From positions 1 through 64,000 of the IMG/VR virus record IMGVR_UViG_3300025141_016306: a DNA stretch of 64,000 bases. The stretch is one strand, 5' to 3'. Position numbers and translations under genes: made by a program. This document shows positions 569-55,856 of this stretch, piece after piece. The notes beneath the pieces were generated by a model, which did no database searches, had not been told where the DNA came from, and saw only the letters and a program-made list of their open reading frames with translations. How positions within the stretch are numbered: the first letter of the stretch is position 1; the number at the start of each line of letters is the position of its first letter. Source of the stretch: a virus.

Positions 569-1027
569 TTAATTTACCTGATTTACAGCATAGACGATAA
601 CAATGGACGTAACAATCCCAGCTACTACTCCGCCGGCAAACCATAGAGACGAATAATCGTTTGTTTCGGTAGCTATCTTGCTAAGCCTTTCGATTTCCTG
701 GTCTTTTATATCTAGAAGCGCCGTATATTTTTTATCCATGGAGTCCATGGATGCCTGGCTTGTTTCAAGAAGCAAATTTAAACGAAGAATTTCCTTTTGC
801 ACCGCATATTCGATGCGCAATTCACATTCCATGTCGACGAACTCTTTCTCTGTAAAAATCTTAGCTGCAGCCACTGTGTTAAGGAGGACGCCGCTATAAG
901 GGGCGGGTTGGTCCTTTGCTATGCTTGTTATTTGAGGTTGGGGTGGGACCTCGGGTGGGTCCGCCATGGCGGCGGTTGGGATGGCCATTAACAAGACCGC
1001 TATCAATACTATAAACTTATTCAACAT
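569..1027 (-). CDS. Exported coiled-coil protein with C-terminal membrane anchor, spanin-like topology
   Basis: About 152 residues. It has a clear N-terminal signal peptide (MLNKFIVLIAVLLMAIPTAAMA, cut here only at a likely AMA site), then a Pro-rich stretch, then a long heptad-like helical region (roughly 60-120), then a hydrophobic C-terminal segment of about 20 residues ending in VIVYAVNQVN. Signal plus coiled coil plus C-terminal anchor is the topology of a unimolecular spanin, which joins inner and outer membranes in the last step of lysis. No lipobox cysteine is present, so this is not a standard one. The start is uncertain: an in-frame ATG at 1039 is also possible. It overlaps the neighbouring TM-plus-coiled-coil gene, supporting a shared lysis role. 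Function is inferred from topology only. Confidence 0.6.
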   Translation of the reverse strand: MLNKFIVLIAVLLMAIPTAAMADPPEVPPQPQITSIAKDQPAPYSGVLLNTVAAAKIFTEKEFVDMECELRIEYAVQKEILRLNLLLETSQASMDSMDKKYTALLDIKDQEIERLSKIATETNDYSSLWFAGGVVAGIVTSIVIVYAVNQVN

Positions 1028-1418
1028 ACTCCAACCCATATTTGTCGGCTAGCAATTGCGCCAACTCATCAGGTTTATCATAATACTTTTCAATCATTTC
1101 TTTAAGCTCTTTCTTTTTTTGCGCGTCCAACTCTTCTTGATCTTCTGAATGTTTTTCTTCCAACTTGGAGGCAAGGTCGTTATACTTCTTTAAGATCTTG
1201 TCTCGCTTTTCAAGCTCTTCTCTGTGCGCTTCATTAATGGCCTCGATCTGTTTGCGATAAGATTCATTGCGAACTTCTAGTACCTCCTGGGCGGCGCCTT
1301 TTCTCCGAAAAAAGGACCATAACACAATTGTATAAAGCACAATGGCGGGCACATACCAATTATGCTTAAGCCATATGCCAATCTTTTTTAATGTAACCCA
1401 TGCGGTTTTAAGGAACAT
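1017..1418 (-). CDS. Small membrane protein with periplasmic-type coiled coil, i-spanin-like
   Basis: About 133 residues. One transmembrane segment lies near the N-terminus (around NWYVPAIVLYTIVLWSFF), followed by RRKG and then some 85 residues of highly charged heptad-like helix (many E, K and L), and a short tail. This is the layout of Rz-type inner-membrane spanins, though similar layouts also occur in unrelated phage membrane proteins. I chose the ATG at 1416-1418 because AAAGG lies 6 bases upstream; the ATG two codons earlier has AAAGG directly against it. It overlaps the genes on both sides by about 10 bases. With the holin-like genes 550-1190 bases upstream it fits a lysis cassette. 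No sequence motif proves this. Confidence 0.6.
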   Translation of the reverse strand: MFLKTAWVTLKKIGIWLKHNWYVPAIVLYTIVLWSFFRRKGAAQEVLEVRNESYRKQIEAINEAHREELEKRDKILKKYNDLASKLEEKHSEDQEELDAQKKKELKEMIEKYYDKPDELAQLLADKYGLEYVE

Positions 1419-1773
1419 ATTCATCCTTTAACTCTTTAAGCTCGTCGTGGATGGCCTCTTCAAGCCATTCTGTGGTTGTTCCAAGTTTGTCTGCATGACC
1501 CTTGGCGTCACCAAAATAATCATTCATGTAAGGCATCAACACCTTTTCGAACTCTGCGACAACATCGCTAGCGACGCCTGCTATGCCTTCATCATGATCC
1601 TCGATGGCGATGTAATGATTTTGCACAATAAGCGCGCCTATTTCGTTGGTGATCTCCACCAAATCCATCGAATTTCTGCCTTGCTCAATGACATCAGCTA
1701 TCTCGGGCATCTGCCGTAAAGCGCGCAGTTCTTCGCGAATTATCTGCTTTAAACGTGATTGTGTAATTTTCAT
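1408..1773 (-). CDS. Hypothetical acidic helical protein with MKITQSRLKQIIREEL N-terminus
   Basis: 121 residues, soluble and acidic, mostly helical. Its first 16 residues (MKITQSRLKQIIREEL) form a basic amphipathic helix that I recognise as a recurring N-terminal tag on otherwise unrelated proteins of large marine phages. Its role is not known to me; a targeting or cleaved leader function is a guess. The rest has no recognised motif. The start ATG overlaps the stop of the upstream gene as ATGA (1770-1773), with GGAG 9 bases before it. It sits among membrane proteins of the presumed lysis cassette but has no membrane segment itself. Confidence 0.6.
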   Translation of the reverse strand: MKITQSRLKQIIREELRALRQMPEIADVIEQGRNSMDLVEITNEIGALIVQNHYIAIEDHDEGIAGVASDVVAEFEKVLMPYMNDYFGDAKGHADKLGTTTEWLEEAIHDELKELKDEYVP

Positions 1774-1961
1774 CGGCCGTGTCTCCAGCGGCTGGCGATA
1801 TCAGCAAGACCCTCTAGCCCGATATAGGCCAAAGAAATAGCCACCCAGTCTTCAGAAGCTAATGGTACGTTGTCCATAAACATAAAAATAGTGGCAGTAC
1901 CCCATACCATCAGCTTCCGCGACATTATCTTACTTAAAGCCGTATCTAAAACTTGCTTCAT
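1770..1961 (-). CDS. Small membrane protein, holin-like candidate
   Basis: 63 residues. A hydrophobic stretch around KLMVWGTATIFMFMDNV is followed by a second moderately hydrophobic one around WVAISLAYIGLEGLADIA, and a basic C-terminus (SRWRHGR). Small proteins of this kind, with two weak membrane segments, are common next to holin-like genes in marine T4-like phages. GAGG sits about 10 bases before the ATG. It overlaps the next gene by four bases (ATGA). Lysis timing is the likely setting, but a general membrane role cannot be excluded. Confidence 0.55.
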   Translation of the reverse strand: MKQVLDTALSKIMSRKLMVWGTATIFMFMDNVPLASEDWVAISLAYIGLEGLADIASRWRHGR

Positions 1962-1972
1962 AAAAACTTACC

Positions 1973-2209
1973 TCACGGCTCGGATTTTCTAGAAAGGATG
2001 GTCAACAATACCCATGCGGCTACGAGGCCAACAAGACCTTCGCTTCCAAGAGTTTTGGTGATGGCTACCACATTTCCAACAACATCCACTGGGAAAAATG
2101 CCGTCTGTGTGCCAAAGAGAACTTGCAATACGACTGCTAACGCTAAAATCGAAACACTGAGGTCCACTAGCTGTTTTGCCCAGCCGGTTGCTTTTTGTAA
2201 ATATTCCAT
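1973..2209 (-). CDS. Two-pass small membrane protein, putative holin
   Basis: 78 residues with an amphipathic N-terminus (MEYLQKATGWAKQLVDL), a first membrane segment (about 18-36, VSILALAVVLQVLFG), a short loop, a second membrane segment (about 56-72, GLVGLVAAWVLLTIL) and a charged tail (SRKSEP). This size and topology fit a class II holin, which makes lesions in the inner membrane at the end of infection. An ideal AAAGGAG lies 8 bases before the start. No endolysin lies next to it in this window, so the assignment rests on topology and on its small membrane-protein neighbours. Confidence 0.6.
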   Translation of the reverse strand: MEYLQKATGWAKQLVDLSVSILALAVVLQVLFGTQTAFFPVDVVGNVVAITKTLGSEGLVGLVAAWVLLTILSRKSEP

Positions 2210-2220
2210 ATTGATTCTCC

Positions 2221-2248
2221 TTTATGGTTAGTTTAATTAGTCCATAAA
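2221..2248 (-). other. Inverted repeat upstream of the putative holin gene
   Basis: A perfect 7-base inverted repeat, TTTATGG and CCATAAA, with a 14-base loop, fills the 41-base gap between the beta-helix gene and the putative holin. In the mRNA its downstream arm ends directly against the GGAG of the holin ribosome binding site. It is AT-rich and has no strong T-run, so it is a poor terminator. It could affect ribosome access to the holin start, or be chance. Confidence 0.3.
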
Positions 2249-2250
2249 TT

Positions 2251-3582
2251 TTATTCTATCACGGTTTTAGGATCGGTGCCCTGAGTGGCCACGTAAGCCA
2301 CTGTTCGCCTTCTTATTCCGGGTGGCCCAGCCACTGCGTAAGAGAAAGGAAGATTGCCAGGATCGGATGTCAATATCCCGTCATATGCGCCGGCATCGCC
2401 GGATCCTTCTGACATTCCCGTAAAGCATCCCATATAATAAGAAGCATCCTCACCTTCGGGGGCATATTGGTATTGTGAAGGTTGTTGGAGATATTTGTTA
2501 ATAACGAAGGTGTCTGAAAAGTCGGGGTAACTTGAGACCGTTTCAGAGTTCCATGCTTGGTTGGTGACTGTTCGGCTGCTTCCGCTTATATCAGTGGTTA
2601 TGCCCTCGTAAGCTGAGCCGCGCTGCGAAAGTACGCTGTCGCTTTGAAGAATATAACTTCCTATGACTGCAGACATTGGATTGGCGTTAATAGCGCTGGA
2701 ATCCTGAAACCCTACGTCTCCAATATCGTTCAATTCAAGATCCCCTGTGCCGGCTGAACCGTTTGCATCGTTGGCCTGGTTTCTCCATCGTGCGGTTCCC
2801 GCGTATACGGCGCAATAGGAGTGATCGTCTGATGCAACTCCGTAATCTGCATATGAACTCGTGGCGACGACTATAGAATTAATTATTTTCCCGATTCGCA
2901 CGATAGGGATCGCATCGATGTCGCCTGTGGGTCTCGCAATGAAAGTGCAAAAGCTAGCTGTGCAGGTAAGGTCATTAAAGGAGTTGAGGAGCATGTCATC
3001 ATATGGCAATGTGCCCGTTATAAGACAATTGTTGAATTTGGCGAATTGGTTGACGCGAATGGCGTCGGTGCCGGCGGTCTTAAAAAAGAAGGCACAGCCT
3101 TCAAAGCTGGAACTCTCGTTGGTGTCCCAAGACTTTCCTTCAAGGCTGACATAAGTAAGCCTAGGGACGCTGTGGGTAAAACATCCGGACATGCTTACAA
3201 CGCGGCGGTCATCGACGGCGCTTTGATCTCCGTTGTGAAAGATATAAGAGGCGAAGTCCCCCGTCTCCAACCCTTGAAAATACGCGCCCGCCGTTATATT
3301 ACCAAATCGAACGAAATATTGCAATTGGCCCGGGCCGAGATCGGTGCCAAGAATCTGGGGCCGGCCGCGCTCACTAGCGGTATGTCGAACGGTCCAGCCA
3401 TTATAACTGAATGTGAACTCGCCTTCATAATAACGCCCCTCATCGGTAATCTCGATAATTTGATCGTGACCGCCGGCGCTGGCGCTTGTAACGGCGGCGC
3501 CGATTGTTGCAAGGGGGGTGGCCATATTTGAGGCATCGCCGGTGGCGTCCGAACCGAATGAAGAATTTACATACCAAACCAT
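2251..3582 (-). CDS. Parallel beta-helix (pectate-lyase-like fold) virion protein, possible tail fibre or spike
   Basis: 443 residues. It opens with YVNSSFGSDATGDASNMATP followed by LATIGAAV, the usual opening of right-handed beta-helix proteins, where asparagine-rich turns and short beta strands repeat. The rest is rich in G, S, T, N and D with no charged helices. Such proteins usually bind or cut polysaccharide as tail spikes or fibre parts. No catalytic residues can be assigned by eye. It lies just downstream of the Mre11-Rad50 gene, 35 bases away, and before the lysis genes. No good ribosome binding site precedes the ATG, which is unusual here and may mean low or coupled translation. Confidence 0.65.
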   Translation of the reverse strand: MVWYVNSSFGSDATGDASNMATPLATIGAAVTSASAGGHDQIIEITDEGRYYEGEFTFSYNGWTVRHTASERGRPQILGTDLGPGQLQYFVRFGNITAGAYFQGLETGDFASYIFHNGDQSAVDDRRVVSMSGCFTHSVPRLTYVSLEGKSWDTNESSSFEGCAFFFKTAGTDAIRVNQFAKFNNCLITGTLPYDDMLLNSFNDLTCTASFCTFIARPTGDIDAIPIVRIGKIINSIVVATSSYADYGVASDDHSYCAVYAGTARWRNQANDANGSAGTGDLELNDIGDVGFQDSSAINANPMSAVIGSYILQSDSVLSQRGSAYEGITTDISGSSRTVTNQAWNSETVSSYPDFSDTFVINKYLQQPSQYQYAPEGEDASYYMGCFTGMSEGSGDAGAYDGILTSDPGNLPFSYAVAGPPGIRRRTVAYVATQGTDPKTVIE

Positions 3583-3617
3583 AAGATTAATTAGTTTTTA
3601 AAGCAATTATCGCTCTT

Positions 3618-6600
3618 TTAAATTTCCATGACACGGGCATAACCGTCTTGCTTATCGATGGTTATTTGCATGTCGACGCAATCTTTTAGAGAGTCCAAAT
3701 GGGAGATGAGCAGCACCGTTTTAAAGTAAGACTTAACCAATTCTAAAATAGAAATGAACCCCTCCATATTGTCCGCGTCAAGAGCGGTTCCTGGTTCATC
3801 TAAAATAAATAAATCTGACTTTGGCAAATTGGAAACTGTCAAAAGAGCCAGGCGGATGGCCATGGCTGCAATTGTCTTTTCTGCGCCGCTTCCCATTTCT
3901 AATGGACGCGGTTCGTGACGCGGGTGTTTAATGTAAATCTTTAAGTGGCGGCCGTCATTCTCAAAAAAGACCTCAAACTCTACAACATTGGCTAGCACCT
4001 TTGCTATTTCATTGTTGATAAGAGGAAGCTTCTTCTTGATAATATCATAAGAGATGCCGTTGCTGTGTGTACATCTCATGAAAAGATCGTAAGCCGCGTA
4101 TTCTTCGCGGAGATTTAATAGCTCTTCTTTTTGCTCTTCCAATGCTGCGACCTTTTGTTCGAGAGAGCCATGCTCTTTATAAAGTTCTAGCAACTCCTGC
4201 TCGCACCCTTCCAGGTCCTTGGCGTTAATAGTGGCTGTAGCTTGTAAATCGGCCAATTGCTTAACAAGCGCCTCTTTCCCTTCGATTATCTCCTTGTTTT
4301 CATTGTATTCTTCTTCTTTTTGCTTTAGATTGTCTATTTCTTTCTCCAGAGAGCTTTTTTGAGTTTCGTCGCGCTCTAACTTAAGAGAAAGATTGAGTAT
4401 CTCCCCATCCAGGGCTTGTTTTTTCTCCAGCAGTGAATTATAGTTTGCTTGGTATTCCTCTACCTTTGTAGGGTTTAACTTCTCGATTTCATTAAGAATC
4501 GTTCCTTTTTTATCCTCCAAAGACTCTTTAATATTCTGCGTAATACTCAGGTTGTCCACAGCCACATAAGCGTCTTTGATAAACTTGCAATGAGAAAACT
4601 CGGATCCGCAAGGCACTTCCTTTAGAAGGTTGCTCTTCTTTTCTTGATTTTTTCGCTGTATGTCTAGGCTGCCGATTTCATTAATGATTTCATCGAATTC
4701 TTTCCTTTTGTCCTCGATAATCTCTTGCTTTTCTTTGACCTCTTCGATATCAAAAACATCCACAAAAGAGGTAATCTTGGTAAGCAACTCGTTGTTTTCT
4801 TCAAGGGTTGTCCCATTGGAAGCAAGGTTTCTAACAATCTCTTCTAATTCTTCGATCCGTTTCTCCAGATTCTCATGAATTTCGTCGACATCAATGATCT
4901 CGGCAGGAATTGCATCAATACGCCTTGTTAAATCGCTTGTTTCGCTCGTGAGCGCCCCAAGGTCCTTTTTGAGCTTTGCGCACTTTTTAGCATGCCTCTT
5001 CGTCTCATTTTCGTTATATAAGAGGTTCTTATAAGCCTCCGTGATCTCCTCGTTAAAGTCCCGACCTTCCAATCTTTTTAGAGCACCGCGCAAATCGGAA
5101 GCGTCGTCTTTTGCAGCTTTGTGTTTAATATCAAACATTTCCAAGTCCAAGAACTTGGCCAGGATCTCTTTGCGCTTTGTTGATCCTTCGCTGATAAAAG
5201 CAAGAGAGCCAAGCTGAGAAGACATCGACGTAAGCAGAAAATCGTCCATTGCGCCGAAATACTTGCGAATATTCCTATCGGTGTCTGAGCGCGTGAGACC
5301 ATTGAGGCTTCTGGTTTCGTCCGTCACCTCATCATAAACTTCAAAATTCAAGTCAGTCTTGGCTTCGAGCGTTTCTTCACCCTTAAGCTTTTTGACATAC
5401 TTTTCGGACTCACGAACAACTGAATATCTCTTGTTCCCGATTGAAACCGTCACAGATCCTTTGCCGGAGTCTTTATTCTGATTAATAATATTGAGGTTTT
5501 TCCTCTCATTCTTTGAAGTGCTATTAAAGAGAGTGTATAAAACACTGTCCACAATACTAGATTTTCCAGAGAAGTTTTTACCAAAGACGCCCACGATTCC
5601 GGAGAACTTTGTAAAATCAATTCCATTGTCAGCGCCATAGTTAAAAAGATTGTCCCATTCGAGACGCTCCAAACGCCAATTAATATTGCGATGAATTTCT
5701 TCTTTGTCCTCGATAAGAGAATTATACTTGGAATTTAATTTTAAAACCCGCTCCATTAATTCGTCTTCAGGTTGAAAGTCTTTTAGATACTCTTTGATAA
5801 GCTTCTTTTGCACCACCGAGTCGCGCAAGTTATCCGCCTCAATATTAGTGGCCATAGACTCGACGCTTCCGCCGGTACCGGCTGCGCGGTTCAAGAAAGT
5901 GATGTGTTCTGGCTTAAAACGATGCTTGGCGATCTCCACCGCCTTTTTCATGGCATCCAGCGATAAGTTGTTATTAGAGACAAGGCGCAGCCGCGCCTGT
6001 TCCGGAAGCTTAGTATTTCTGGGGAGGCGCCCTTTGGGAGTAAGCTCAATCGTTATAAAGGGGCGCGGATTTTCTAAAACATGATGAGTGCAGGTAAAGG
6101 TATCCCGATCTTTGATATCCCAAATCAAAAAACCCTTGTCGTTAGTCTCTCCGTGATTTTGCTGCACGGTAGAGCCTGCATAACGAATTTTTCCTTTGTG
6201 ATCTAGAATCTGGTTCGTCTTGTGGATATCCCCAAGAAACGCAAAATCGTGGCCTTCAAAGATCGATAGGTCGTCCTCGCCGTGCTCCATGACCCAACCA
6301 AGATCAGTCCTACTGTTAGATATAGCGCCATGGTAAAGAGCGATATTGATCTTTCCACTGTCTGAAGGTGAAACCCAATTATCACGATCAAACACGCTAA
6401 GAACGTTAAGGCTGTAGCTTCCATCTAAATCCTCCTCTCCGCTATTCTTTAACAAGAATAGATTTGGATTGTCTAACGCCTCTACAATGGGCGTGATGGC
6501 ATCCTGCCTGCTGCTGTTCTTGAGGTTTCCGTCATGGTTCCCCAAGATTACATAAGTAGGGGCTATAGCGGCTAACTCCACCAAAAAATGCGAACAAAGA

Positions 6601-6773
6601 TCAACAAATTCGGGAGACAGTTGCGTTTTGGTATGAGCTATGTCCCCGCAATGAATAATGTAATCTACCTTCTCTTCTCTAAGCATTTTATAAAGCTTTT
6701 CGAAGACTTTTTTGTACTCATAATGATATTTTAAATTTTTTATGTGTGTATCTGCAATGTGTGCAAATTTCAT
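3618..6773 (-). CDS. Single-chain Mre11-Rad50 (SbcD-SbcC; T4 gp47-gp46 type) recombination nuclease/ATPase
   Basis: 1051 residues carrying two proteins that are normally separate. Residues 1-340 are a Mre11-type phosphoesterase: D8 and H10 in HIADTHI, HCGD at 41-44, GNHD at 78-81, YHG at 147-149, GDIHK at 181-185. Residues about 365-1051 are a Rad50-type ATPase: P-loop GKNFSGKSS around 398-406, two long coiled-coil arms (about 570-890) around a variant zinc hook (C722 and C729), ABC signature MGSGAEK at 960-966, Walker B LFILDEPGTALD with D992 and E993, and H-loop H1025. In T4 the complex processes DNA ends for recombination-dependent replication. The Mre11 part matches T4 gp47 in length; the Rad50 part is longer than gp46. 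An in-frame ATG at codon 340 could give a separate Rad50 product. Confidence 0.93.
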   Translation of the reverse strand: MKFAHIADTHIKNLKYHYEYKKVFEKLYKMLREEKVDYIIHCGDIAHTKTQLSPEFVDLCSHFLVELAAIAPTYVILGNHDGNLKNSSRQDAITPIVEALDNPNLFLLKNSGEEDLDGSYSLNVLSVFDRDNWVSPSDSGKINIALYHGAISNSRTDLGWVMEHGEDDLSIFEGHDFAFLGDIHKTNQILDHKGKIRYAGSTVQQNHGETNDKGFLIWDIKDRDTFTCTHHVLENPRPFITIELTPKGRLPRNTKLPEQARLRLVSNNNLSLDAMKKAVEIAKHRFKPEHITFLNRAAGTGGSVESMATNIEADNLRDSVVQKKLIKEYLKDFQPEDELMERVLKLNSKYNSLIEDKEEIHRNINWRLERLEWDNLFNYGADNGIDFTKFSGIVGVFGKNFSGKSSIVDSVLYTLFNSTSKNERKNLNIINQNKDSGKGSVTVSIGNKRYSVVRESEKYVKKLKGEETLEAKTDLNFEVYDEVTDETRSLNGLTRSDTDRNIRKYFGAMDDFLLTSMSSQLGSLAFISEGSTKRKEILAKFLDLEMFDIKHKAAKDDASDLRGALKRLEGRDFNEEITEAYKNLLYNENETKRHAKKCAKLKKDLGALTSETSDLTRRIDAIPAEIIDVDEIHENLEKRIEELEEIVRNLASNGTTLEENNELLTKITSFVDVFDIEEVKEKQEIIEDKRKEFDEIINEIGSLDIQRKNQEKKSNLLKEVPCGSEFSHCKFIKDAYVAVDNLSITQNIKESLEDKKGTILNEIEKLNPTKVEEYQANYNSLLEKKQALDGEILNLSLKLERDETQKSSLEKEIDNLKQKEEEYNENKEIIEGKEALVKQLADLQATATINAKDLEGCEQELLELYKEHGSLEQKVAALEEQKEELLNLREEYAAYDLFMRCTHSNGISYDIIKKKLPLINNEIAKVLANVVEFEVFFENDGRHLKIYIKHPRHEPRPLEMGSGAEKTIAAMAIRLALLTVSNLPKSDLFILDEPGTALDADNMEGFISILELVKSYFKTVLLISHLDSLKDCVDMQITIDKQDGYARVMEI

Positions 6774-6783
6774 ATTTTCCCCA

Positions 6784-7707
6784 CTATCGGCACGATGAAA
6801 AAATAAAATTTTCGAAACTCATCGGTACCGCTCCTTCTCTTAGTTTCTCGACCTCTGCTGGGCTAAGAGACCCTATATCTTCAACGTCGGAGGTATCCAT
6901 CTGGTAAACCTCCAGCCCATATTCTAACATATTTTTAATCACTCGTAAAGACTTTTGTAGCGCATCATCGTCGAAGCCTACATAGACCGGTGGCTGTTTC
7001 TCCACGAGCCTAGAAAACAATTTTGATTTAATGTTTATTGTTGAACCTAGAATGCAAATTGAGTTCCGCGCTTTGAGCGCGTCGAACGGTCCCTCTACTA
7101 AAATTACGGGCTTGTTCCAGTCGACTAAAAGCTCGTTAAAGACCACGTTTTTGGACACGCGTGGGTTTTTATATTTATAACTGTCGCCGGTGTAGGTGCG
7201 CCCAACAAAGTAATTGCAGTAGCCCTCCTCGTCAAAAGAGGGGATAATGATACGATTGCGATACTCACCGCTAGCGCAGAATCCCAACTTATAATAGCGG
7301 ATCGACTCCATCGTAATACCGCGATCAGCCAGATATCCCATGGGGCGCACGGCTTCGCGAGAAAGGTTCGAAGCACCCAGGAAGACAAATTCTTCCGGAA
7401 GCTCAAGTCGTTGATTTTCTTCGACTATCTCTTCTTTTTCGAAAAGAGAGCCCATTTCTGACATGTCAATTTGATTAGTCAACTGGTACCATTTTTTAAG
7501 GAGATCCCCGTGACCGAAGCGACGAACGAGACGTTGAAGGCTCTTGCCCTTGCTATCGCACACCCAACACTTATAGACTCCCAAGTTTAAATTAATTGAA
7601 AGCTTTTTCTTGTAGTGTTTGCAATACGGACACTCAAACAAATACTCTTCGCGAGATTTGTAATAAGGGCCAAGGATTTCTTTAAGTATATTAAGCTTTT
7701 CTTTCAT
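6784..7707 (-). CDS. DNA primase with CHC2-type zinc finger and TOPRIM domain (T4 gp61-like role)
   Basis: 307 residues. The N-terminal zinc-binding domain shows C26-x2-C29 and C47-x2-C50, and the C-terminal TOPRIM domain shows LVEGPFDA (E205, G206) and GFDDDA (D246-D248), the metal-binding acidic residues of primases. It makes RNA primers for lagging-strand synthesis. At about 300 residues it is the size of phage primases that act with a separate helicase; no helicase domain is fused. It starts 76 bases... directly after a 43-base gap below the RuvC-like gene and ends 10 bases before the Mre11-Rad50 gene, so the three form a DNA-processing block. Confidence 0.88.
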   Translation of the reverse strand: MKEKLNILKEILGPYYKSREEYLFECPYCKHYKKKLSINLNLGVYKCWVCDSKGKSLQRLVRRFGHGDLLKKWYQLTNQIDMSEMGSLFEKEEIVEENQRLELPEEFVFLGASNLSREAVRPMGYLADRGITMESIRYYKLGFCASGEYRNRIIIPSFDEEGYCNYFVGRTYTGDSYKYKNPRVSKNVVFNELLVDWNKPVILVEGPFDALKARNSICILGSTINIKSKLFSRLVEKQPPVYVGFDDDALQKSLRVIKNMLEYGLEVYQMDTSDVEDIGSLSPAEVEKLREGAVPMSFENFIFSSCR

Positions 7708-7750: not shown

Positions 7751-8302
7751 CTATTGATTCATTAAAGTCAAGCTTTTTTTGGATTGTAGTAGTTTAAGGC
7801 CTGCTTTGGCGATTACGGTGGCATCAGCGATGTCAAAATACTTGGGCTTGGGATTCCCGTGAGAGGTATATTCCACTGCAAAATTGGGGACATGTTCGAG
7901 AAGCCATGCGACAACTTGCTTTTTGGTATTTTGTCCTCTTTCCACCTTAATTCCTAATTGTTTTCGAGAATGGGATGCGGTGATATGCTGGGGTTGTTTG
8001 TCAAAGATTTCGTATGTCAACCATGATACCACCCCGTTAAACCTCTGGAGGACGGCCATTGTATTGGCTGTTGAGCCGCCGGCTTTAAAGAAGGTAAGAG
8101 GCTTCTCAATATAGATCTTTTCAATCGGGTATTGAACCTTAAGGCGGGTAAGTTCTTCTTTGATGAAGGACGCTTTGTCAAATTCATTTTTAAACTTCTT
8201 CTTGTTTCTCATATCCCAAGCATCGCATGTTATAATCTCGCTCTCGGCGTCGATTACACAGAAGCCTGTAATGCTTGTGCTTATGTCTAAACCCAATATC
8301 AT
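7751..8302 (-). CDS. RuvC-like Holliday junction resolvase
   Basis: 183 residues with an RNase H-like fold pattern: the first strand MILGLDISTSITGF carries D6, the second acidic residue is E66 in IYIEKPLTFF, and the C-terminal helix FDIADATVIA supplies D157 and D160. These are the metal-binding residues of RuvC-type nucleases, which cut four-way junctions. T4 uses a different nuclease (gp49) for junction resolution before packaging; RuvC-like enzymes replace it in many large phages. AGGAAA precedes the ATG at good spacing. It leads the resolvase-primase-Mre11/Rad50 block. Confidence 0.87.
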   Translation of the reverse strand: MILGLDISTSITGFCVIDAESEIITCDAWDMRNKKKFKNEFDKASFIKEELTRLKVQYPIEKIYIEKPLTFFKAGGSTANTMAVLQRFNGVVSWLTYEIFDKQPQHITASHSRKQLGIKVERGQNTKKQVVAWLLEHVPNFAVEYTSHGNPKPKYFDIADATVIAKAGLKLLQSKKSLTLMNQ

Positions 8303-19914: not shown

Positions 19915-22900
19915 TTAAAGGCCGCCTTTTCCCATCCACTCCGCGAATGCTTTGGAGACACATTGAAGCTGACCCTTCTTGGGCCCGGACTTCGGAATCC
20001 AGGCCACTAGGCCGTCCGGACATGGCGATTGTACCATGCCAGTGGTGTAGTTATTGGCTCCTAATGCCGCGGCAATAGAGCTAACTACGCCGGCTGGCGT
20101 GGCCGTTAGGGTTCCTGCGTCTTCTGCAAGGGCGGCGGCGACGGCAGAAAGATTATTGGGTGCTAAAGCTGCCGCGGCGCCACCTTCCGCGCGCGGGTTA
20201 AACACCGTGGTTGCTGTTGTCTTGCTTAACTCTATCAGCGAGAAAAAGTCATTCGGCCAGTTATAAGAAAAGGCAAAGTCATGGGGGTGAGCCACATCGC
20301 TGCGCACATACTCTTTGCCGTCAATTGACTGTCGTCCCACCACGTTCGCATAATTATTTCGCGCCCGTTTCTTAACCTTAAAGACTGCCCATCTCGTTTT
20401 GTCAGGATCGAAGATCTCTTCAAAATACGGATGCGGGGGGACGCCCTTCTGTGACGCCTCGGGTCCAGTATCTGCTTCTAATGCACGAGTTGGGAGCACA
20501 TGTGTAATTACATCGCTGGTAGCTTTTATTGCTTTTCTTGCCATCGTTGGCTCGATGCCCTGCCAGATGTTTTGTAGGTCCTCTGTTCCTAGTTTAACCT
20601 CAAACTCCCACATATAAGCCACAAATGGCTCTACATCCTCAAAATGTAAAAAGTCAAACTGGGGCGGCATCACATATTTTCTCATTAATCTCAATAGGTT
20701 ATAAATCCCCTGATCAACTCCCGCGGGGGCTTCTAGTGGTATCTGTTTTCTGTAGTCCTTAACCAGACCTTGGGTGGCTGCGATGGCTGTGCTCTCCTTG
20801 AAGATCGGCTCTTTCACAGTGGTATTGGTCGTTGTGGCTTCGCAGTTCTTTGCCGCATCTACCGCGCTCTTGTTCATTTTATAAAGCATTGTGCGGTTAG
20901 TGTTATTGAAATATTTAAAGGGTATCGCCACAATAGCTTCGGAGAGCATGCGCTCTGTGGCCAAGCTCCCAATTTTGGACTCGCGGTTAGATGGGCCAAA
21001 GCTTAAAAGACTTGCAAGAGATTGAGCGTCGGCATCTTCGCCGGCAGCGCGCATATAAAAGCTCGGGTCTTGCACAGCCATGGTGATTCCCTCCGACGCG
21101 GAAGGAAGTGCTCCGTATTGATGCCACATGCCCACTGGGGCGTTACCGCTCACCGTTTGAGGGGTCGGGGTAAGCGAGGAGGTCGCATGGCTAGAGAAAT
21201 CCAGGACGGGTGTTTCAAACTTGGGATGGACGATGAGGCGTTGGTCGGTCTTGTCCCTCTCATTGTAAAAAATCCATTCGCCCGTGGCGGAGTCGCCTTG
21301 CAATCCCTTGGGTTGCCCAAAATTCAAAGATGCGGATATTTGCATGGCGTTTGCTTGCGCGCAAGATCCGCCGCCCCAATTGGCCACGTTTTGGGCGGCG
21401 CCGGTGGGGCCTTTTGCAAAGATAGACATGCCCGGGTTCCAAGTTTTCATTCTATCATATGACTGAGATATCTCAGCCATAAGCTCGCTAACAAGTTTTG
21501 AACCTTTATCTAGGCCCACCATCAAGCGGCAATAACTATAGCCATCATAATATGGAGGAGTGTAAGGCTCAAAAGAGGCAACGTTGCCTAGCCAATTATC
21601 AAGACCTCCCGTAGGCGCGAGACCCGACGGTCCAGCAAACCAAAGTGAAAACGGGCCCGAATTAACTGGTGGGCCGAATGAGGATCCATATGTATGAACG
21701 TCTGTTGTATATCCACTATTGGCGCGCGAATACATTGTGATACTAGAAGTATTATAAAGAAGACTTGAGCCCCACAGATACGTAGCTGTGCCATATACCC
21801 AATTTGATGCATCAGAGTGAAAAAAGCTGCTCGTTTCATAATATGACTGGTAATCTACCATATTGCGAGAATTTCTCAGCACCACATCGAGATAGTAATT
21901 TCCAGAGACAGGAACCGCGACAGTATCCTGGATTGGGAGAGGCATGCTAGTAATAGAAGACACCGCCCCCTCTTCTAAGAAAAAGTCTACGCTCTCGGCC
22001 AAAAAGTTGTTCATTGCAAATTTATAGGCCGGTGCCACGACGCGGTAGCTAGCTGTCGAATCCAGACGCGCGTCCATCATTCCTTCCATGTCGCGCAGGG
22101 CCAAGGCGGGGGCTGGATCGTAAATCTGCTCAAAGTTAATCCGCTGATTAAAGTTTCCGCTAATCATTGAATTCGAGCCCCATACGTCCCTATCGCTTCC
22201 CACCCAGTCCAAGGTCGTCGAATCCGCGTTGTGAACCGGGTAGTCCACAGCCAGGCCTGACTTAACACTGTTGTATAAAATGCCGGGGGCGAAGAAGGGC
22301 TGCAACAGCGTGCGCAGCTTCCCGTTGTCCGCAGGTGCGCCCGCGGACTCTAATTTAACGCCTTGCAACGATGAGGAGAAAAGCGTGCCCAATTGAACTG
22401 TTCTTTCTGATGGATAAAAGCCATTATAGGGTAAAAACTTTATGATTGCTTCGCAGCCTAGGCTGAGACGCGGCGTTTTTATTTTGCCAAAAGTTTGGCC
22501 GGCGCTGGTATCTCCGAACCCCTTCTGGAAAAGCTTAAAATGTTCGTAGAAGTCCGAGTATACGTGTCTCTTCAAGAAATCGTCTACTCGATTAGATGAG
22601 TCCGTGGCAGCGCCGGTGAGTGACAACATTCCATTTTTAACGCCAAGACCTGTAGTGTTGGTTAGATTTTTAAAGTACGGGTAAGTGGGCTTCTCTAAAC
22701 TCCAATTAGATCCCTTGCGCGCAGCGATAAAGTCTCCCATTTTTTCCGAAATTCTAAACTCTGGAAGAATCGTAGAATCTTGGGCCATGGCCGAAAGACC
22801 ATCGGCGTAATCATCGTAAGTATCATAAAATGGAGCGGTGCCAGCGTTGTTGCTTCCTGTAGCGACCCATTGGCCGTGGCCAACAGACGCCGTGAATTGG

Positions 22901-25900
22901 ATTAAGTAGGCAACCTCTCGGGCCCGGGCGGTGTCCACAACGCTCCCTTGCCACCCGACGTAGCCTAGGGAACCGGCGTAGCTATACGGAAGTCCAAACG
23001 AGGCTGTTCGAGAATAACTGCCAGACCAAATTGGAAGCTGGTCGGAAGAGCCAAAATCCGAACTCCACGCAGTCGTCGGAGAAGCGGCGAGGAGCGGGAT
23101 TCGACGAATATAACTGCATGCCGGCATAATATTGGAGGCGGTGCCGTAATGGAACAAGCTATATGTATTCTGAAGTTCGCCAACTCCGCTGCCTGTGGGC
23201 ATTGAAGCAGAATAGGGGGCGTGCGAACCGTAAGTGATGTAGTCGAGCGCTTGGTCTGCGCCGTATTCGCTTGTTGCGTCCAGCTTCCAAAGGCTGGCTG
23301 TCCCGATAAGTTCTCCCATCGAATTGGGAAGGCCGGTGACGCTAGCCCCGCCTGTTCGGTTTCGATTCGCGCGCGTTGATCTCCAGAAGTCATTAACAAA
23401 TGTCTCTCTCTTTCGACTGCCTGAAAGATATGTAAATTGTTCTTTCGGGTAAATAACCTCTGTGTAGGCGGCTTGTGTGTCTGCCTTCTTCCCGGTTTTC
23501 TCCACCAATGTCTTGATGGCCAAATACGGGGAATAGGTTTTTGTGAATAGATTTTTATTGTTTGGGTCGTGTTTCGTCAACAGGACATCTAGGGCAGCGC
23601 CATCTTGACTGTGGTCGGTAAATAGCACATTCTGGTTGCCATAAGTCATGACAATCTTAGCGTAATCGTTTTCATTATCGCCTGTCGGTAGATATATCTG
23701 CAAGGGCTTATATTTGCCGCTAGCTACCGGTTCCGTATAGTTAACGATTGTCTTCGAAAATAAACCTGAGAATCCGGGGGTCCCTAGGGGATTCTCTCTG
23801 TCTTGGCCAACCATGGCCGTAACCGCCTCTTCTTTAACGTATCCAATTTCATTATATCTTCTCTGGTATCTTACAATCGGATGTTGATCGCCTCGAATTT
23901 GTTTCCAAGAAGGCCATCCGTAAGGGCCTTGACGGTGAAGAATTAATCCATTTAAAACTCTTGGGAAACCTCCGCCTGGTAAACTCCCCACAGAAGTGGC
24001 CCGAGTAACAAGGCCTCCTTTATAGGGATATGTAGCCCTGTCGGTGGCGTCCAATGGATTGAGGTTGACCATTCCGCCCGGATATCCCAACATATTCGTA
24101 CTCGCAGTAAGCGCTTCCTGAATATTCATGTTTAATCCTGCAAAGTCTACAGGAATAAAGTTTGGAGAGTCGGGTGCCATCCCTGCTATGGCGCCGGCCA
24201 ACTCCTCACCATAATATCGATTCGCGCCGCCCCACGAGCCGACCGTGCTAGCGCTACAAAAAGTAATATCAGTTGACGCCTCATCTCCGCGGGCAAAGTT
24301 TCTTTGTTCATATCCCAATAAGATGTCGCCAGTTTGCAATACGCTGGCCGTGATCCAAGAATATTGAAAGTCTGACTGTGGAATCGGATGCGAAACCATG
24401 GCGTTATCGTAATGGGAGGCAGTAATAATTGTTGCTTGATCTCCCTCGTATTGATTTCCATATTGGACTCTTTTCCGGGCATTTCGATTAACTTTGTGGA
24501 AAGAAGCCGTCGCATCCGTATAGCCAACCATGGCGTAATACGACCCCGCGTTGACGGAACCGCTTGTGCCGGGATAGGCCTGCCCCGCGCGGACATAACT
24601 GGCCGAGTTAAAAGCGTCACTGAAATATCCGAACTGCTTTGAGTGATCCGAAAGAAGCACATCTAAAGGCTGTCGCACTTCAAGGTTTCTGAAGGGAAGC
24701 GCATTGTAAACCGAATATTCGGCGGCCTCGATGTCAAGGAATCCTAAACTATTGACCTCTGGGCCGCCGGGAGCAGAGAAGCGATTCACAATCACAAACT
24801 GATTGCGTGCGCGCACGGGAAGCGTATAATCAACGGTGCCGCTAATCAGGCTCTCCACAGAAGATCCAGTAATACTTCCTGTCTCCACCAAATATATGTT
24901 GTTAGCCGTACGGCTATTTGTCAACACTACATCATAGTCATTACTATAGTTGCCAATATTGGTAATGTTAGACGCTGTAGTCTGTTGGATATTCTTAATG
25001 TTTATGGGGCGCTTAGCCATTGGCTCGCGGAAAAAGACGGCGCGTGGGAGGTTATTATTTATATTCCCCACAGGATCACCGGGTCGGGATGCCGGATTAA
25101 GAAGCGTTATGCCGTTATCCGTGAACGCGCCGCCCTCTTGATCAACCGTCCACACTTCACCTCGATTTGTTTGATTGGCGCTGCCAGTGTTTAATTTTTG
25201 GTGTCTATGTTGATTACCACCCACATATTTTTCTGTAAACAACCCTTGCATGGGGTGTTCATAGTCGGGCCCGTAGACGTCATGGTGGATATTGGTCAGA
25301 CGCGCGTTGCTGGGCAAGTCCGCAAGTCCGCTTTGAGGCCCCAGCGAAGAACTGATGATGTTGAATGGTGCCAACAAACTCGCATCGGCGCGATTGTATG
25401 TATCGTTGTTGAAAGACCAATTTACGGTGCCCGCTGGCAGAATCGTTTTTTGGTTTGACCCTGAGAGCCATGGCTTCTGTGTCCCTTCTATACAGTCGGC
25501 GGAACTGCTTAATGTTGTAACGATGGCAAGATCGGCAGATCCGCCGCCTGCTGCATAGAAGCGCTTCATCGTTTCTTTGTAATAGGTCACTTTTTTATTG
25601 CGATGAAAATTGATGCCGCCTTTATAGTGCTCACTTATATCACCCGCAGTTCGATAAGGTTTGGCGTGCCTTAAGGCATATGTTGAACCAGAATATTGTG
25701 TAGACGAGCCGCTATCATATAAAGTATAGTTGGGGGCGTTGTTTTCGTTATTAATAGAATCTAATATATCTTGCTTGTTGGTATTGACTCCAGTAACTGC
25801 CGAGTAAATAACCGTATTGGTTCGGAGCGCTCTATTCCGCCACCACAAACATTTCTCTTTTTGAGAGCTATTCAGCGGGGCATGCCCAAGCCTCCAATTG

Positions 25901-28900
25901 TATAGAAGCTCGTTAACACCGAGCACTTGCGCATTAAAATCTGGAATTTCTTCGCGGATGACTGGCGCCTTGTGCTGAAATTTATTGCGATCCCCAAGGA
26001 CAAAGTTTTCCACAATGGTGGAAACGCCCTCTTTGAGCACTCCCATCGAAGCTGGGATTAAATTGGCAATATATTGGCTCATTGCATAATCAATAAACTT
26101 GAAGTATTCTACATACTTATCGAAATCATAGTCATTGTCAACCTTCTCGAAGAACAGGTCTGACATCTTAATAAGTTCTTTATAATTGCCGCGGAAACGA
26201 TTGACGTTGGCACCGATGAGGGTGTTTAAGTACCCGGCCGTGGCGAACATTCCGAGCATTTCTTCGGATACATCTTGAAATAAGTTTTTCTCTATTGAAA
26301 GATTATAAGTGGTCGGTCGCGCGTTGCGCGTATAAAAATCGTCTGATTGGTTCTCCACAATATTAACTAAGTTGGAATCCAGAAGAACTTCTGGTACTTG
26401 CTGTTGCAGGGTGCCGCGAGACAGCTTCTGTACAGGCGCACTGCTCGATATGCTAAAAAAGCTGCCGCTAGCTGTGTGGCGACGGCTGACAAGGCCGCTA
26501 AACCAATCAAAACGATCATCAGTGGCGCTTCCAGAGGAGGCATCTTCAACTGAAAACTGGCCATACGCGTCCGATCCCGTGACCGAGGCAAAATTCCAGC
26601 GCAAAGCAAGCGTTTCTATTTCTGATACATCGGTGCCCTTAATTGCGTCTTGGTAGAGGAACGCCCTCCTAGAAGGAGACGCCGGGCCGTAGCTGCCAAT
26701 TTTCATATTGTGCTGGTCAATAGAGGATGTTGCAATATCGGCATACCATGCTTTAACTTCGCTTATTTTTGTATCTGCGAACTGCAGCACAGCGCCTGTA
26801 AAGTTAGTTCTATGCGCTCCGGCGTAAACTCTTTTATGACTAGCTAAAATTTTGCGCCCTTCTTCAACACTGAGGGAAGCTGTCAATATAAATTCGTTCC
26901 GCTTTAAATCGCCAATATGATTAGAACCGTAAAATCGGACCTTGTATCCGTTCAATTCAGAGCCGTCTGGCTCGTTAATCTGAGGATAGGTGTTCGGCTT
27001 GACGGTTACAGCAAATGTCCAGAGATCATCGTCGTAGACATTCTCAAAAAACGAGGAGGTTAGCTCGGGGGTGATGAAGCCGCCGGCGGATCCCGTTAAG
27101 ACAAATTTAGCGTTGCTAGAGAATCTATTGTCTTTGACGGCAAAGACCTGGAAGTTGGCGTAGTCATTTGTTGCCCATGTTAGGTCATTTTCTGTACCAT
27201 TAGCGGTGTGTAAACCGAAGAGAGAAGAAGAAACGACGAGAGGATACAGATTCTCATAAGAACTGCTTGTGCCTCGCTTAAGTGTCGCATACTCACCAAT
27301 TGAAACTCGATTGGGTAGCACTATATCGCTCTCTAGGGTAAAAGAGAGTCCTGAGCCTTCATAGTCACCATCATAATCGGAGGTGCCAGAGATGAAGGAA
27401 GTAGCATTTGAGTCGGTGCGATACTGGTAGACGCTCGCATCCTGGCTGCCTGTTTTATTGAAATTTATATAATTTGTAACCTTTGTTATTTCGCGCGTGT
27501 TGTCTTGGAGTTTGTAGGCTCCGTTGTTCGCGTAAATATTGAATTTTAAGGCATTGTCTCCTAGCCCGAAACAGCGGAAAAGGTTTCTCATCGCCTTTTC
27601 GGTGCCCTTGGCCTTGTTAATATAAGTGAGATTGTTGTAAATGTTCTGGTAAATGGTGTTTTTAATCTCTTGGAGCGTTTCCTCGAACTTTAAAGTATCA
27701 CTGCGATTTTCAAATTGCTCCAAGAGATCTGCGTTTATGAACAAGTCAGAAGCAATCATGCCCCGTGACTCTATAAAGTGCTTATTAAATGGCGGCGGGT
27801 TTGTGTCGCCGGCGTAGTATTTCTCGTGTTTCAGTTCTGGAAGTTTTTGAACAAGAAGCGCTGCTGAGTCAAAATAACTTCCCATAATTTGCAACGCATT
27901 TAATAGTTCATTTTTATTTAGATTGGACGGATCCGTTTCGTTCTCGCTCAACATCCACTGCGGAACAAACGAATCCATTTTGTTTGCGTTTACATCATCA
28001 TGGACGCGCCCTTCCAGTTTTTTCTCGTTCTTGTAGCCCAAAACGGTTGGATGGAAAGAATATAAAATGGGATCCTGGAATTCCGTTGGGCTCGCAGATG
28101 AAGAAACAATCGCCGATCCCGTGTTACGAGAATAGGTAGCGGAATATCCTGTCCATGCGCCATTGGTGATACGACCGGAATAGTCAAGCACCACCGCATC
28201 AATTGAAGCTGTTTGCGTGATTCCTGCATTAAACTTATAATAAACACCTAGATCGGTGTTGGCAGGGTCGCTATTGGTGCCGCCGCCGACTTGGCCAAAC
28301 CAATATCGTTGAAGCTTCTCAGAACTTCTGTATGTCTTCCAATATCGGAGTTCATCCAATGATCCCGATAACTTAGCATAACCGCGGTCTGGTCCATCGT
28401 GATAAATATTTCCCGAGGGAGACTGCCCCAATGCAGCGATGGTGGCGCACAGAGCGCCGCTCACGTAGCCAACGGACGAACCGGTAACAATCCTATCGTT
28501 GTGTTCGCCATCTATAAAGAGATCTGCGACAACCGTGCTGCCCGTATTCTTTAACCTAAAAGCATAATGATGCCACGTGTCATCTGCGACAGTGGCTGCT
28601 GTTATGGAGTCACCGATGCTTTGCGTTGCAAAACCCGTGGCTCCGGACATATAGGTGAGCAAGAAGGGGCTACCGGTGGCGGCGCCTGTCATCTCAATGC
28701 GGAAGCGTCCATAGTCGACTGAACTGCTTAGGGTACCCGTAACAAAGACGTCAAGAATTACCTCTTTTTCGGTTGCCGCGGCGGAAAAAGCATCTTTGGA
28801 AAGCCAAAACTCGACTGTGTTTCCGTCGATGCCGCCAATTTTAAGATTGTTTTCACGATTATTGTCTAAATCATATATATTTGCATCTTTCCGATAAACC

Positions 28901-29385
28901 GCCTTATCCTGTTTATAGTCATAGTAAACCTTTAGACCGGTACCGGCGTTGGGTCCGCCTTTGACAAGAATGTATTCATAGGAGGAGGTTCCGGCGGCGC
29001 CGTAACCATTGTACATGTCGGTGGCAGTTAAACTGGCCGTCGTGAATGTTGCATAGCCAGTAGTGCGGGGATACCCATTTTCAAAAATGTATAAATCTAG
29101 GTAGGAGGAACTAATTTCCCATTGGATCTTTTCTTTTAATGATCCGTCATAAGGATACGTATCATATATTCTCGTGATCGTATCTTCGTAGTATTTTTCA
29201 GCGGAACCGAAACGAGCAAAAGATTTTGGTTCAGAGAAGTGCTCAAGGGGTAGAAAACGCGCGTTGTTTTCCTTGACGGCTCGCATATAATCAAATGATT
29301 CTACCTGGCTATCAATCTCTTGTTTGGTTAGAGGCTCAGCACCGCTGTTGCCCTTCCCCTCATTAAATAAATCTTTAAGTGACAT
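19915..29385 (-). CDS. Giant virion protein with LamG-like jellyroll domain (3156 aa)
   Basis: A 3156-residue protein without internal stop. After a helical N-terminus (about 1-90) comes a LamG/concanavalin-like jellyroll at roughly 165-370, with WHHYAFRLKNTG and LDELRYWKTYRS as typical strands; such domains bind carbohydrate. Residues about 1020-1150 are helical and charged. The rest is mostly beta-rich and full of S, T, G, Y and N, with many aromatic residues, as in adhesins and fibre proteins. It lies two genes downstream of the gp6-like protein, where T4 has gp7 (1032 residues) and further wedge and fibre proteins. A baseplate-linked adhesin or giant wedge protein is likely; no enzyme motif is seen. 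Confidence 0.75.
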   Translation of the reverse strand: MSLKDLFNEGKGNSGAEPLTKQEIDSQVESFDYMRAVKENNARFLPLEHFSEPKSFARFGSAEKYYEDTITRIYDTYPYDGSLKEKIQWEISSSYLDLYIFENGYPRTTGYATFTTASLTATDMYNGYGAAGTSSYEYILVKGGPNAGTGLKVYYDYKQDKAVYRKDANIYDLDNNRENNLKIGGIDGNTVEFWLSKDAFSAAATEKEVILDVFVTGTLSSSVDYGRFRIEMTGAATGSPFLLTYMSGATGFATQSIGDSITAATVADDTWHHYAFRLKNTGSTVVADLFIDGEHNDRIVTGSSVGYVSGALCATIAALGQSPSGNIYHDGPDRGYAKLSGSLDELRYWKTYRSSEKLQRYWFGQVGGGTNSDPANTDLGVYYKFNAGITQTASIDAVVLDYSGRITNGAWTGYSATYSRNTGSAIVSSSASPTEFQDPILYSFHPTVLGYKNEKKLEGRVHDDVNANKMDSFVPQWMLSENETDPSNLNKNELLNALQIMGSYFDSAALLVQKLPELKHEKYYAGDTNPPPFNKHFIESRGMIASDLFINADLLEQFENRSDTLKFEETLQEIKNTIYQNIYNNLTYINKAKGTEKAMRNLFRCFGLGDNALKFNIYANNGAYKLQDNTREITKVTNYINFNKTGSQDASVYQYRTDSNATSFISGTSDYDGDYEGSGLSFTLESDIVLPNRVSIGEYATLKRGTSSSYENLYPLVVSSSLFGLHTANGTENDLTWATNDYANFQVFAVKDNRFSSNAKFVLTGSAGGFITPELTSSFFENVYDDDLWTFAVTVKPNTYPQINEPDGSELNGYKVRFYGSNHIGDLKRNEFILTASLSVEEGRKILASHKRVYAGAHRTNFTGAVLQFADTKISEVKAWYADIATSSIDQHNMKIGSYGPASPSRRAFLYQDAIKGTDVSEIETLALRWNFASVTGSDAYGQFSVEDASSGSATDDRFDWFSGLVSRRHTASGSFFSISSSAPVQKLSRGTLQQQVPEVLLDSNLVNIVENQSDDFYTRNARPTTYNLSIEKNLFQDVSEEMLGMFATAGYLNTLIGANVNRFRGNYKELIKMSDLFFEKVDNDYDFDKYVEYFKFIDYAMSQYIANLIPASMGVLKEGVSTIVENFVLGDRNKFQHKAPVIREEIPDFNAQVLGVNELLYNWRLGHAPLNSSQKEKCLWWRNRALRTNTVIYSAVTGVNTNKQDILDSINNENNAPNYTLYDSGSSTQYSGSTYALRHAKPYRTAGDISEHYKGGINFHRNKKVTYYKETMKRFYAAGGGSADLAIVTTLSSSADCIEGTQKPWLSGSNQKTILPAGTVNWSFNNDTYNRADASLLAPFNIISSSLGPQSGLADLPSNARLTNIHHDVYGPDYEHPMQGLFTEKYVGGNQHRHQKLNTGSANQTNRGEVWTVDQEGGAFTDNGITLLNPASRPGDPVGNINNNLPRAVFFREPMAKRPINIKNIQQTTASNITNIGNYSNDYDVVLTNSRTANNIYLVETGSITGSSVESLISGTVDYTLPVRARNQFVIVNRFSAPGGPEVNSLGFLDIEAAEYSVYNALPFRNLEVRQPLDVLLSDHSKQFGYFSDAFNSASYVRAGQAYPGTSGSVNAGSYYAMVGYTDATASFHKVNRNARKRVQYGNQYEGDQATIITASHYDNAMVSHPIPQSDFQYSWITASVLQTGDILLGYEQRNFARGDEASTDITFCSASTVGSWGGANRYYGEELAGAIAGMAPDSPNFIPVDFAGLNMNIQEALTASTNMLGYPGGMVNLNPLDATDRATYPYKGGLVTRATSVGSLPGGGFPRVLNGLILHRQGPYGWPSWKQIRGDQHPIVRYQRRYNEIGYVKEEAVTAMVGQDRENPLGTPGFSGLFSKTIVNYTEPVASGKYKPLQIYLPTGDNENDYAKIVMTYGNQNVLFTDHSQDGAALDVLLTKHDPNNKNLFTKTYSPYLAIKTLVEKTGKKADTQAAYTEVIYPKEQFTYLSGSRKRETFVNDFWRSTRANRNRTGGASVTGLPNSMGELIGTASLWKLDATSEYGADQALDYITYGSHAPYSASMPTGSGVGELQNTYSLFHYGTASNIMPACSYIRRIPLLAASPTTAWSSDFGSSDQLPIWSGSYSRTASFGLPYSYAGSLGYVGWQGSVVDTARAREVAYLIQFTASVGHGQWVATGSNNAGTAPFYDTYDDYADGLSAMAQDSTILPEFRISEKMGDFIAARKGSNWSLEKPTYPYFKNLTNTTGLGVKNGMLSLTGAATDSSNRVDDFLKRHVYSDFYEHFKLFQKGFGDTSAGQTFGKIKTPRLSLGCEAIIKFLPYNGFYPSERTVQLGTLFSSSLQGVKLESAGAPADNGKLRTLLQPFFAPGILYNSVKSGLAVDYPVHNADSTTLDWVGSDRDVWGSNSMISGNFNQRINFEQIYDPAPALALRDMEGMMDARLDSTASYRVVAPAYKFAMNNFLAESVDFFLEEGAVSSITSMPLPIQDTVAVPVSGNYYLDVVLRNSRNMVDYQSYYETSSFFHSDASNWVYGTATYLWGSSLLYNTSSITMYSRANSGYTTDVHTYGSSFGPPVNSGPFSLWFAGPSGLAPTGGLDNWLGNVASFEPYTPPYYDGYSYCRLMVGLDKGSKLVSELMAEISQSYDRMKTWNPGMSIFAKGPTGAAQNVANWGGGSCAQANAMQISASLNFGQPKGLQGDSATGEWIFYNERDKTDQRLIVHPKFETPVLDFSSHATSSLTPTPQTVSGNAPVGMWHQYGALPSASEGITMAVQDPSFYMRAAGEDADAQSLASLLSFGPSNRESKIGSLATERMLSEAIVAIPFKYFNNTNRTMLYKMNKSAVDAAKNCEATTTNTTVKEPIFKESTAIAATQGLVKDYRKQIPLEAPAGVDQGIYNLLRLMRKYVMPPQFDFLHFEDVEPFVAYMWEFEVKLGTEDLQNIWQGIEPTMARKAIKATSDVITHVLPTRALEADTGPEASQKGVPPHPYFEEIFDPDKTRWAVFKVKKRARNNYANVVGRQSIDGKEYVRSDVAHPHDFAFSYNWPNDFFSLIELSKTTATTVFNPRAEGGAAAALAPNNLSAVAAALAEDAGTLTATPAGVVSSIAAALGANNYTTGMVQSPCPDGLVAWIPKSGPKKGQLQCVSKAFAEWMGKGGL

Positions 29386-49482: not shown

Positions 49483-49504
49483 ATATTACTCAATTTGACA
49501 CAAG

Positions 49505-52825: not shown

Positions 52826-52835
52826 TATAAATTAC

Positions 52836-53720: not shown

Positions 53721-53721
53721 A

Positions 53722-55855: not shown

Positions 55856-55856
55856 A

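Follow-up and report, generated by a model that had tools for sequence, protein, structure and literature searches.

The minus-strand gene at 3618..6773 of the window, by which we mean the whole stretch of 64,000 nucleotides that was analysed (positions 1–64,000 of a virus record 82.6 kb long), very probably encodes a single-chain Mre11–Rad50 (SbcDC) DNA-end-processing enzyme of a marine tailed phage, as judged from its sequence. Its open reading frame (ORF) begins with ATG and contains zero internal stops. An earlier note had placed Mre11 and Rad50 in a single frame at these positions, which is borne out; the strand, which that note did not give, is added here. The gene, its parts and its two upstream neighbours are as follows.

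3618..6773, minus strand: fused Mre11–Rad50 gene, 1051 aa (single ORF; Pfam and PHROGs matches; 80/80 best relatives fused)
6099..6773, minus strand: Mre11-type nuclease domain, residues 1–225, with ligands D8, H10, D44, N79, H148, D182 and H184 (Metallophos; ligand conservation, n = 81; Foldseek)
5886..6098, minus strand: Mre11 capping domain, residues about 226–296 (AlphaFold2 secondary structure; alignment with full SbcD/Mre11 chains)
5703..5819, minus strand: helix-loop-helix, residues 319–357, at the position of the Rad50-binding motif of Mre11 and including codon 340 (helices 319–333 and 337–357)
5754..5756, minus strand: ATG of codon 340, a proposed internal Rad50 start that is not supported (Met in 36/81; no Shine–Dalgarno (SD) site; within helix 337–357)
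5682..5702, minus strand: fusion linker of 7 residues, 358–364 (fixed length; R362, N363 and the next W366 invariant, n = 81)
5142..5681, minus strand: Rad50 ATPase N-lobe, residues 365–544, with Walker A GKNFSGKS and Q520 (AAA_23; Walker A residues invariant)
4587..4616, minus strand: coiled-coil apex with the putative variant zinc hook PCGSEFSHC, residues 720–729 (between helices 676–719 and 730–765)
3621..4067, minus strand: Rad50 ATPase C-lobe, residues 903–1051, with signature SGAEK, Walker B LFILDEPGTALD and H-loop LLISH (SMC_N; PDB Rad50 matches)
6784..7707, minus strand: primase-like gene directly upstream of the fusion (phrog_47, 1e-44)
7751..8302, minus strand: RuvC-like resolvase gene upstream of the fusion (phrog_159, 3.3e-13)

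Domain architecture and structure model

Pfam assigns Metallophos to residues 1–163 (8.5e-14), AAA_23 to residues 372–606 and SMC_N to residues 802–1040 (4.5e-14), and PHROGs places SbcD (phrog_100) at 1–359 (1.4e-31) and SbcC (phrog_77) at 253–1048 (1.1e-51). The PDB sequence matches are to Rad50 of archaea and Thermotoga and to Mre11 of archaea. Of at least 591 relatives confirmed in a scan of IMG/VR, the best 80 (whole length, 56–100% identity) were kept and aligned with the window protein to give an alignment of 81 sequences. On the nuclease side of this alignment, D8/H10, D44, GNHD at 78–81, H148 and GDIH at 181–184 are invariant or nearly so, and the same holds on the ATPase side for the Walker A residues, S-G-x-E-K, Walker B LDEP, D999 of the D-loop and the H-loop. 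The nuclease motifs (DxH, GD, GNHD and GDIH) and ATPase motifs that the earlier note had read in one frame are present and conserved across the 81 sequences.

Specifically, the metal ligands expected of Mre11/SbcD are found at seven positions across the 81 sequences as D-x-H, GD, GNHD, H and an Asp variant of motif V, and the order of a nuclease fold, a cap and a Rad50-binding helix-loop-helix is recovered with AlphaFold2 and Foldseek. The remainder of the chain carries the Walker A, Q-loop, signature, Walker B and H-loop of Rad50/SbcC in a bipartite head that is split by a coiled coil. As in a fusion of the R555 type, one chain holds Mre11 first, retains the cap and helix-loop-helix and joins the two parts through a short linker; two polypeptides of the T4 gp46/gp47 type are seen neither in the window nor in the 80 best relatives, where a single ORF is found throughout.

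The AlphaFold2 model, built from 60 relatives, has a mean pLDDT of 81.6 and a pTM of 0.47, the latter probably due to the long coiled coil. In this model, the nuclease (1–225) and the cap (226–296) are followed by a weakly predicted segment (297–311) and two helices (319–333 and 337–357), after which a strand at 365 opens the Rad50 head, the two coiled-coil arms span 545–719 and 730–902, and the C-lobe starts from about 903. In Foldseek searches, the whole model best matches Rad50 of the Chaetomium MRN complex (7zr1, 2.8e-21), and the top PDB hits of the N-terminal 364 residues are all Mre11/SbcD chains (7yzp_A, 4.5e-14; probability 1.0). The nearest predicted viral structures are full-length fused proteins of Tupanvirus, Harvfovirus, Yasminevirus and Catovirus, followed by that of Tenacibaculum phage pT24.

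The metal site, the zinc hook and the neighbouring genes

Motif V of the fused protein reads GDIH, in which Asp replaces the His of the GHxH present in the T4, cyanophage and E. coli enzymes; GDIH, listed among the nuclease motifs by the earlier note, is present but is not the canonical Mre11 motif. Apart from PAU, every fused comparator has the Asp, the Rhizobium phage protein on its separate branch among them. At the coiled-coil apex, two cysteines are found in 81/81 sequences, spaced as PCG-x5-C in 73, as PCG-x6-C in 4 and as CxxC in 4, and the hook of the window protein is PCG-x5-C instead of the canonical CxxC. Outside the marine clade, fused and split comparators alike carry a CxxC hook, the exception being the Moorella phage, in which no CxxC was found. 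With an Asp-for-His metal site and a non-CxxC hook, the activity and tethering of the protein may differ from those of the T4 or E. coli enzymes.

The replaced motif V His, the variant hook and the location of the gene beside structural genes could also describe a protein that is no longer an active Mre11–Rad50 nuclease-ATPase and acts as a structural SMC-like DNA tether or as a defence or counter-defence factor. We regard such a loss of activity as improbable, since Asp coordinates Mn well. Moreover, the 81 relatives show no change at the seven metal-ligand positions or in any ATPase motif, and the gene has those of a primase and a RuvC-like resolvase as its neighbours. Mimivirus R555 is reported to have the same Asp, at the position of His206 of P. 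furiosus Mre11 (PMC3175470).

Among relatives having enough flank, the primase gene lies at the same position and on the same strand in 64/67, and a RuvC-like gene lies on the same strand in 62/66. Other genes in the window include those of a baseplate wedge protein and an amidase, a late sigma factor match and sugar-biosynthesis genes. Two giant minus-strand ORFs at 19915–29385 and 33163–42861 (3156 and 3232 aa) have no Pfam match and probably encode virion proteins. Additionally, nucleotide-sugar epimerase, aminotransferase and dTDP-4-dehydrorhamnose epimerase genes lie in a run at 48751–56366 on the minus strand, apparently a case of phage-carried surface-sugar biosynthesis.

Integrity of the fusion in the window and its relatives

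Residues 312–398, which comprise the helix-loop-helix, the linker and the start of the Rad50 head, show zero indels in the 81 sequences, and this fixed-length junction with its invariant R362, N363 and W366 is as expected for a functional single chain. The earlier note had allowed for a separate Rad50 translated from the ATG at codon 340, which, made alongside the full-length fusion, would give an excess of Rad50. The in-frame ATG is there, relatives often have a start codon at the same position, and a weak SD-like match precedes it in 13/80 of them. However, codon 340 encodes Met in only 36 of the 81 sequences and mostly Leu (27) or Ile (11) in the others, no SD-like site was found before it in the window by the SD scan, and the 41/80 relatives with a start plus SD at residues 302–369 fall within the range given by other stretches of the gene used as controls (10–55). 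Because codon 340 is located inside helix 337–357, a product starting there would also lose part of the Rad50-binding motif. On the basis of Met conservation, the SD scan with its control segments and the structure, we reject the internal start as unsupported and consider a second, Rad50-only product highly unlikely.

The idea that faulty assembly or sequencing merged two overlapping genes deserves practically no credence: the two genes do overlap or almost abut in some split phages, where one indel could fuse them on paper, but the search of related phages proposed by the earlier note finds the fusion as one open frame without a stop in 80/80 of the best IMG/VR relatives, which are independent contigs of 56–100% identity with a fixed junction length, and the isolate genome Mel-JY01 is likewise fused. 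Since all 80 contigs carry the same unbroken fusion, both assembly error and chance are excluded.

Twelve contigs of 120–204 kb each contain one phrog_77 and one phrog_100 match in the same frame, that is, the fusion. No separate SbcC or SbcD was found in these 12 contigs, which are incomplete or of unstated completeness, and RecA was found in 11 of them. Our search returned no plasmid relative of the fusion. In the scan of bacterial and archaeal genomes, full or near-full matches occur only in MAG contigs that resemble binned phage sequence (L096 and L097; L098, between N runs; L099, with phage neighbours), and the remaining matches are short and are to archaeal Mre11. The segment of L098 at 734–7052 (CP070664.1, a WOR-3 bacterium MAG) carries a RuvC-like gene, a primase and a truncated Mre11–Rad50 fusion; this phage segment is flanked by N runs within a 2.8-Mb 'chromosome', which looks like a chimeric scaffold.

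Proposed role, history and relation to known systems

For the single-chain enzyme, we propose that two chains would pair via their Rad50 heads and the Mre11 dimer face into a 2:2 particle of the usual kind, in which the helix-loop-helix of either chain would probably bind that chain's own coiled-coil root, and that ATP cycling of the Rad50 heads would gate the nuclease at DNA ends or hairpins. The resulting ends would feed the RecA-like recombinase of the phage for recombination-dependent replication and repair, as for T4 gp46/gp47. The presence of the fusion as the only copy, along with RecA in 11 of the 12 long contigs, supports a role in recombination-dependent replication, which we infer by analogy with T4.

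The fusion probably originated from the joining of a co-transcribed mre11–rad50 pair, and its main effect would probably be to guarantee co-synthesis, assembly in cis and joint inheritance. Separate Mre11 and Rad50 already assemble 2:2, and the idea that the fusion fixes stoichiometry therefore carries limited weight; from the interpretation offered by the earlier note, what stands is a genuine single chain where T4 and E. coli have two genes, and what falls is the separate Rad50 from ATG 340. A natively 1:1 single chain of 120 kDa would, in any case, lend itself to structural and single-molecule studies of the gating of Mre11 by Rad50.

In a tree of the concatenated Mre11 and Rad50 parts, which includes one cellular sequence and leaves out Mimivirus R555, the marine fusions, Mel-JY01, LR756508, LR756501 and the pT24–PAU group form one clade (99/99), apart from the split T4-like pairs (100/100) and E. 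coli; the sampling favoured fused relatives, and the clade may also include unsampled split forms. The fusion of a Rhizobium phage is placed elsewhere in the tree on a very long branch, so that two changes of state are needed, and it is possibly an independent fusion event. A search for relatives of this Rhizobium phage fusion gave one weak locus. The protein itself (RHph_TM2_3B EVB95_240; L126 4001–6880) is a 959-aa Mre11–Rad50 fusion whose sole annotation is recombination endonuclease. Split phages invariably have Mre11 ahead of Rad50, with the two genes overlapping, 32 bases apart or separated by at least one small gene, and this order and closeness make fusion through loss of a stop easy to picture.

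Some of the more distant relatives of the fusion have been split again, and this re-split nuclease domain, which lies outside the window, is a more unusual observation than the window fusion itself. The break falls within the Mre11 nuclease domain, after GDIH and before the next GSxxQQN strand, in three distinct sequences: L149 2983–6222 (the same contig as L156), L157 2301–5553 (the same sequence as L158) and L162 3296–6577. Each locus encodes an N-piece of about 225 aa and a piece of about 860 aa; every N-piece retains all seven metal ligands, and the N-pieces share a similar extra tail, E-x-V[IV]-x-E-x-D[LM]-x-x-YPGA. At this position, a 305-aa ORF, which gives a weak TnsA-like endonuclease match, also breaks up the fused gene of the 484 kb phage LR756508 (L003 4944–9169), and an Rfam search found no intron in this interrupted copy. 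A quick tree indicates that the split state arose at least two times. The ORFs of the two L149 pieces overlap by 10 bases, and the L162 pieces are in the same frame with one stop between them. Programmed frameshifting is an unlikely cause of the L149 split, as relative frames differ among relatives and extra residues are present at both ends.

Essential phage genes are known to be split by homing endonucleases at places critical for function, and the reassembled enzymes work (Aeh1 nrdA; PMC2988022). We raise, as a tentative and rather doubtful reading of these sequences, that the virus-borne fusions constitute a mechanistically distinct class, marked by the Asp site, a relocated hook cysteine and a helix-loop-helix that seven residues tether to its own ATPase, and that their fused gene was re-split at least twice, probably by mobile endonucleases, with some phages reassembling the enzyme from nuclease-lobe and cap–Rad50 fragments. 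If true, such reassembly would be a new Mre11–Rad50 architecture. The re-split relatives offer a natural test of how the pieces of Mre11 assemble.

Proteins of this kind were already described in 2011, when Yoshida, Claverie and Ogata reported fusions in Mimivirus R555, in Bacillus phage 0305phi8-36, in five bacteria (some plasmid-borne) and in six eukaryotes. They argued that phages are the source of abundant ocean relatives of R555, pointing to phage primase genes carried by those scaffolds, and suggested that operons had given rise to fusions repeatedly (PMC3175470). The novelty implied by the earlier note is reduced by that description, which already included ocean phage-like fragments (PMC3175470), and what is added here is a fuller genome context: for ocean fusions represented in 2011 only by short fragments, complete phage proteins with their surroundings are now available, and they support the 2011 inference that these fusions belong to phages. 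Fusions are also present in the isolates Mel-JY01, pT24, PTm1, MA9V-1, PAU and the Rhizobium phage, and several isolate-phage copies are vaguely annotated as 'metallo-phosphoesterase', 'DNA repair' or 'AAA domain containing protein'.

Compared with known systems, the window protein resembles Mimivirus R555 in its N-terminal Mre11 and C-terminal Rad50, its cap and helix-loop-helix, its Asp motif V and the phage-primase neighbour seen in the ocean relatives, whereas R555 is a 1351-aa protein of an amoeba virus and the protein described here is a 1051-aa phage protein with a shorter coiled coil and a PCG-x5-C hook. Microcystis phage Mel-JY01 (WWT39521) and the huge phage LR756508 share the fusion, GDIH, an upstream primase and the clade (98/97), yet they are 30–35% identical and have a CxxC hook, and the LR756508 copy is interrupted within the nuclease domain. 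The proteins of Tenacibaculum phages pT24 and PTm1, Chryseobacterium phage MA9V-1 and Sphingomonas phage PAU (gp288, phrog_35725) are likewise full-length fusions in the same order, but they are 1301–1326 aa long, have DxQ rather than DxH in motif I and a CxxC hook, and show distant homology only. T4 gp47/gp46, their cyanophage relatives and E. coli SbcD/SbcC have the same domains and the same gene order of nuclease then ATPase; unlike the window protein, they consist of two polypeptides with a GHxH motif V and a CxxC hook, and the T4-like pairs form a separate clade (100/100).
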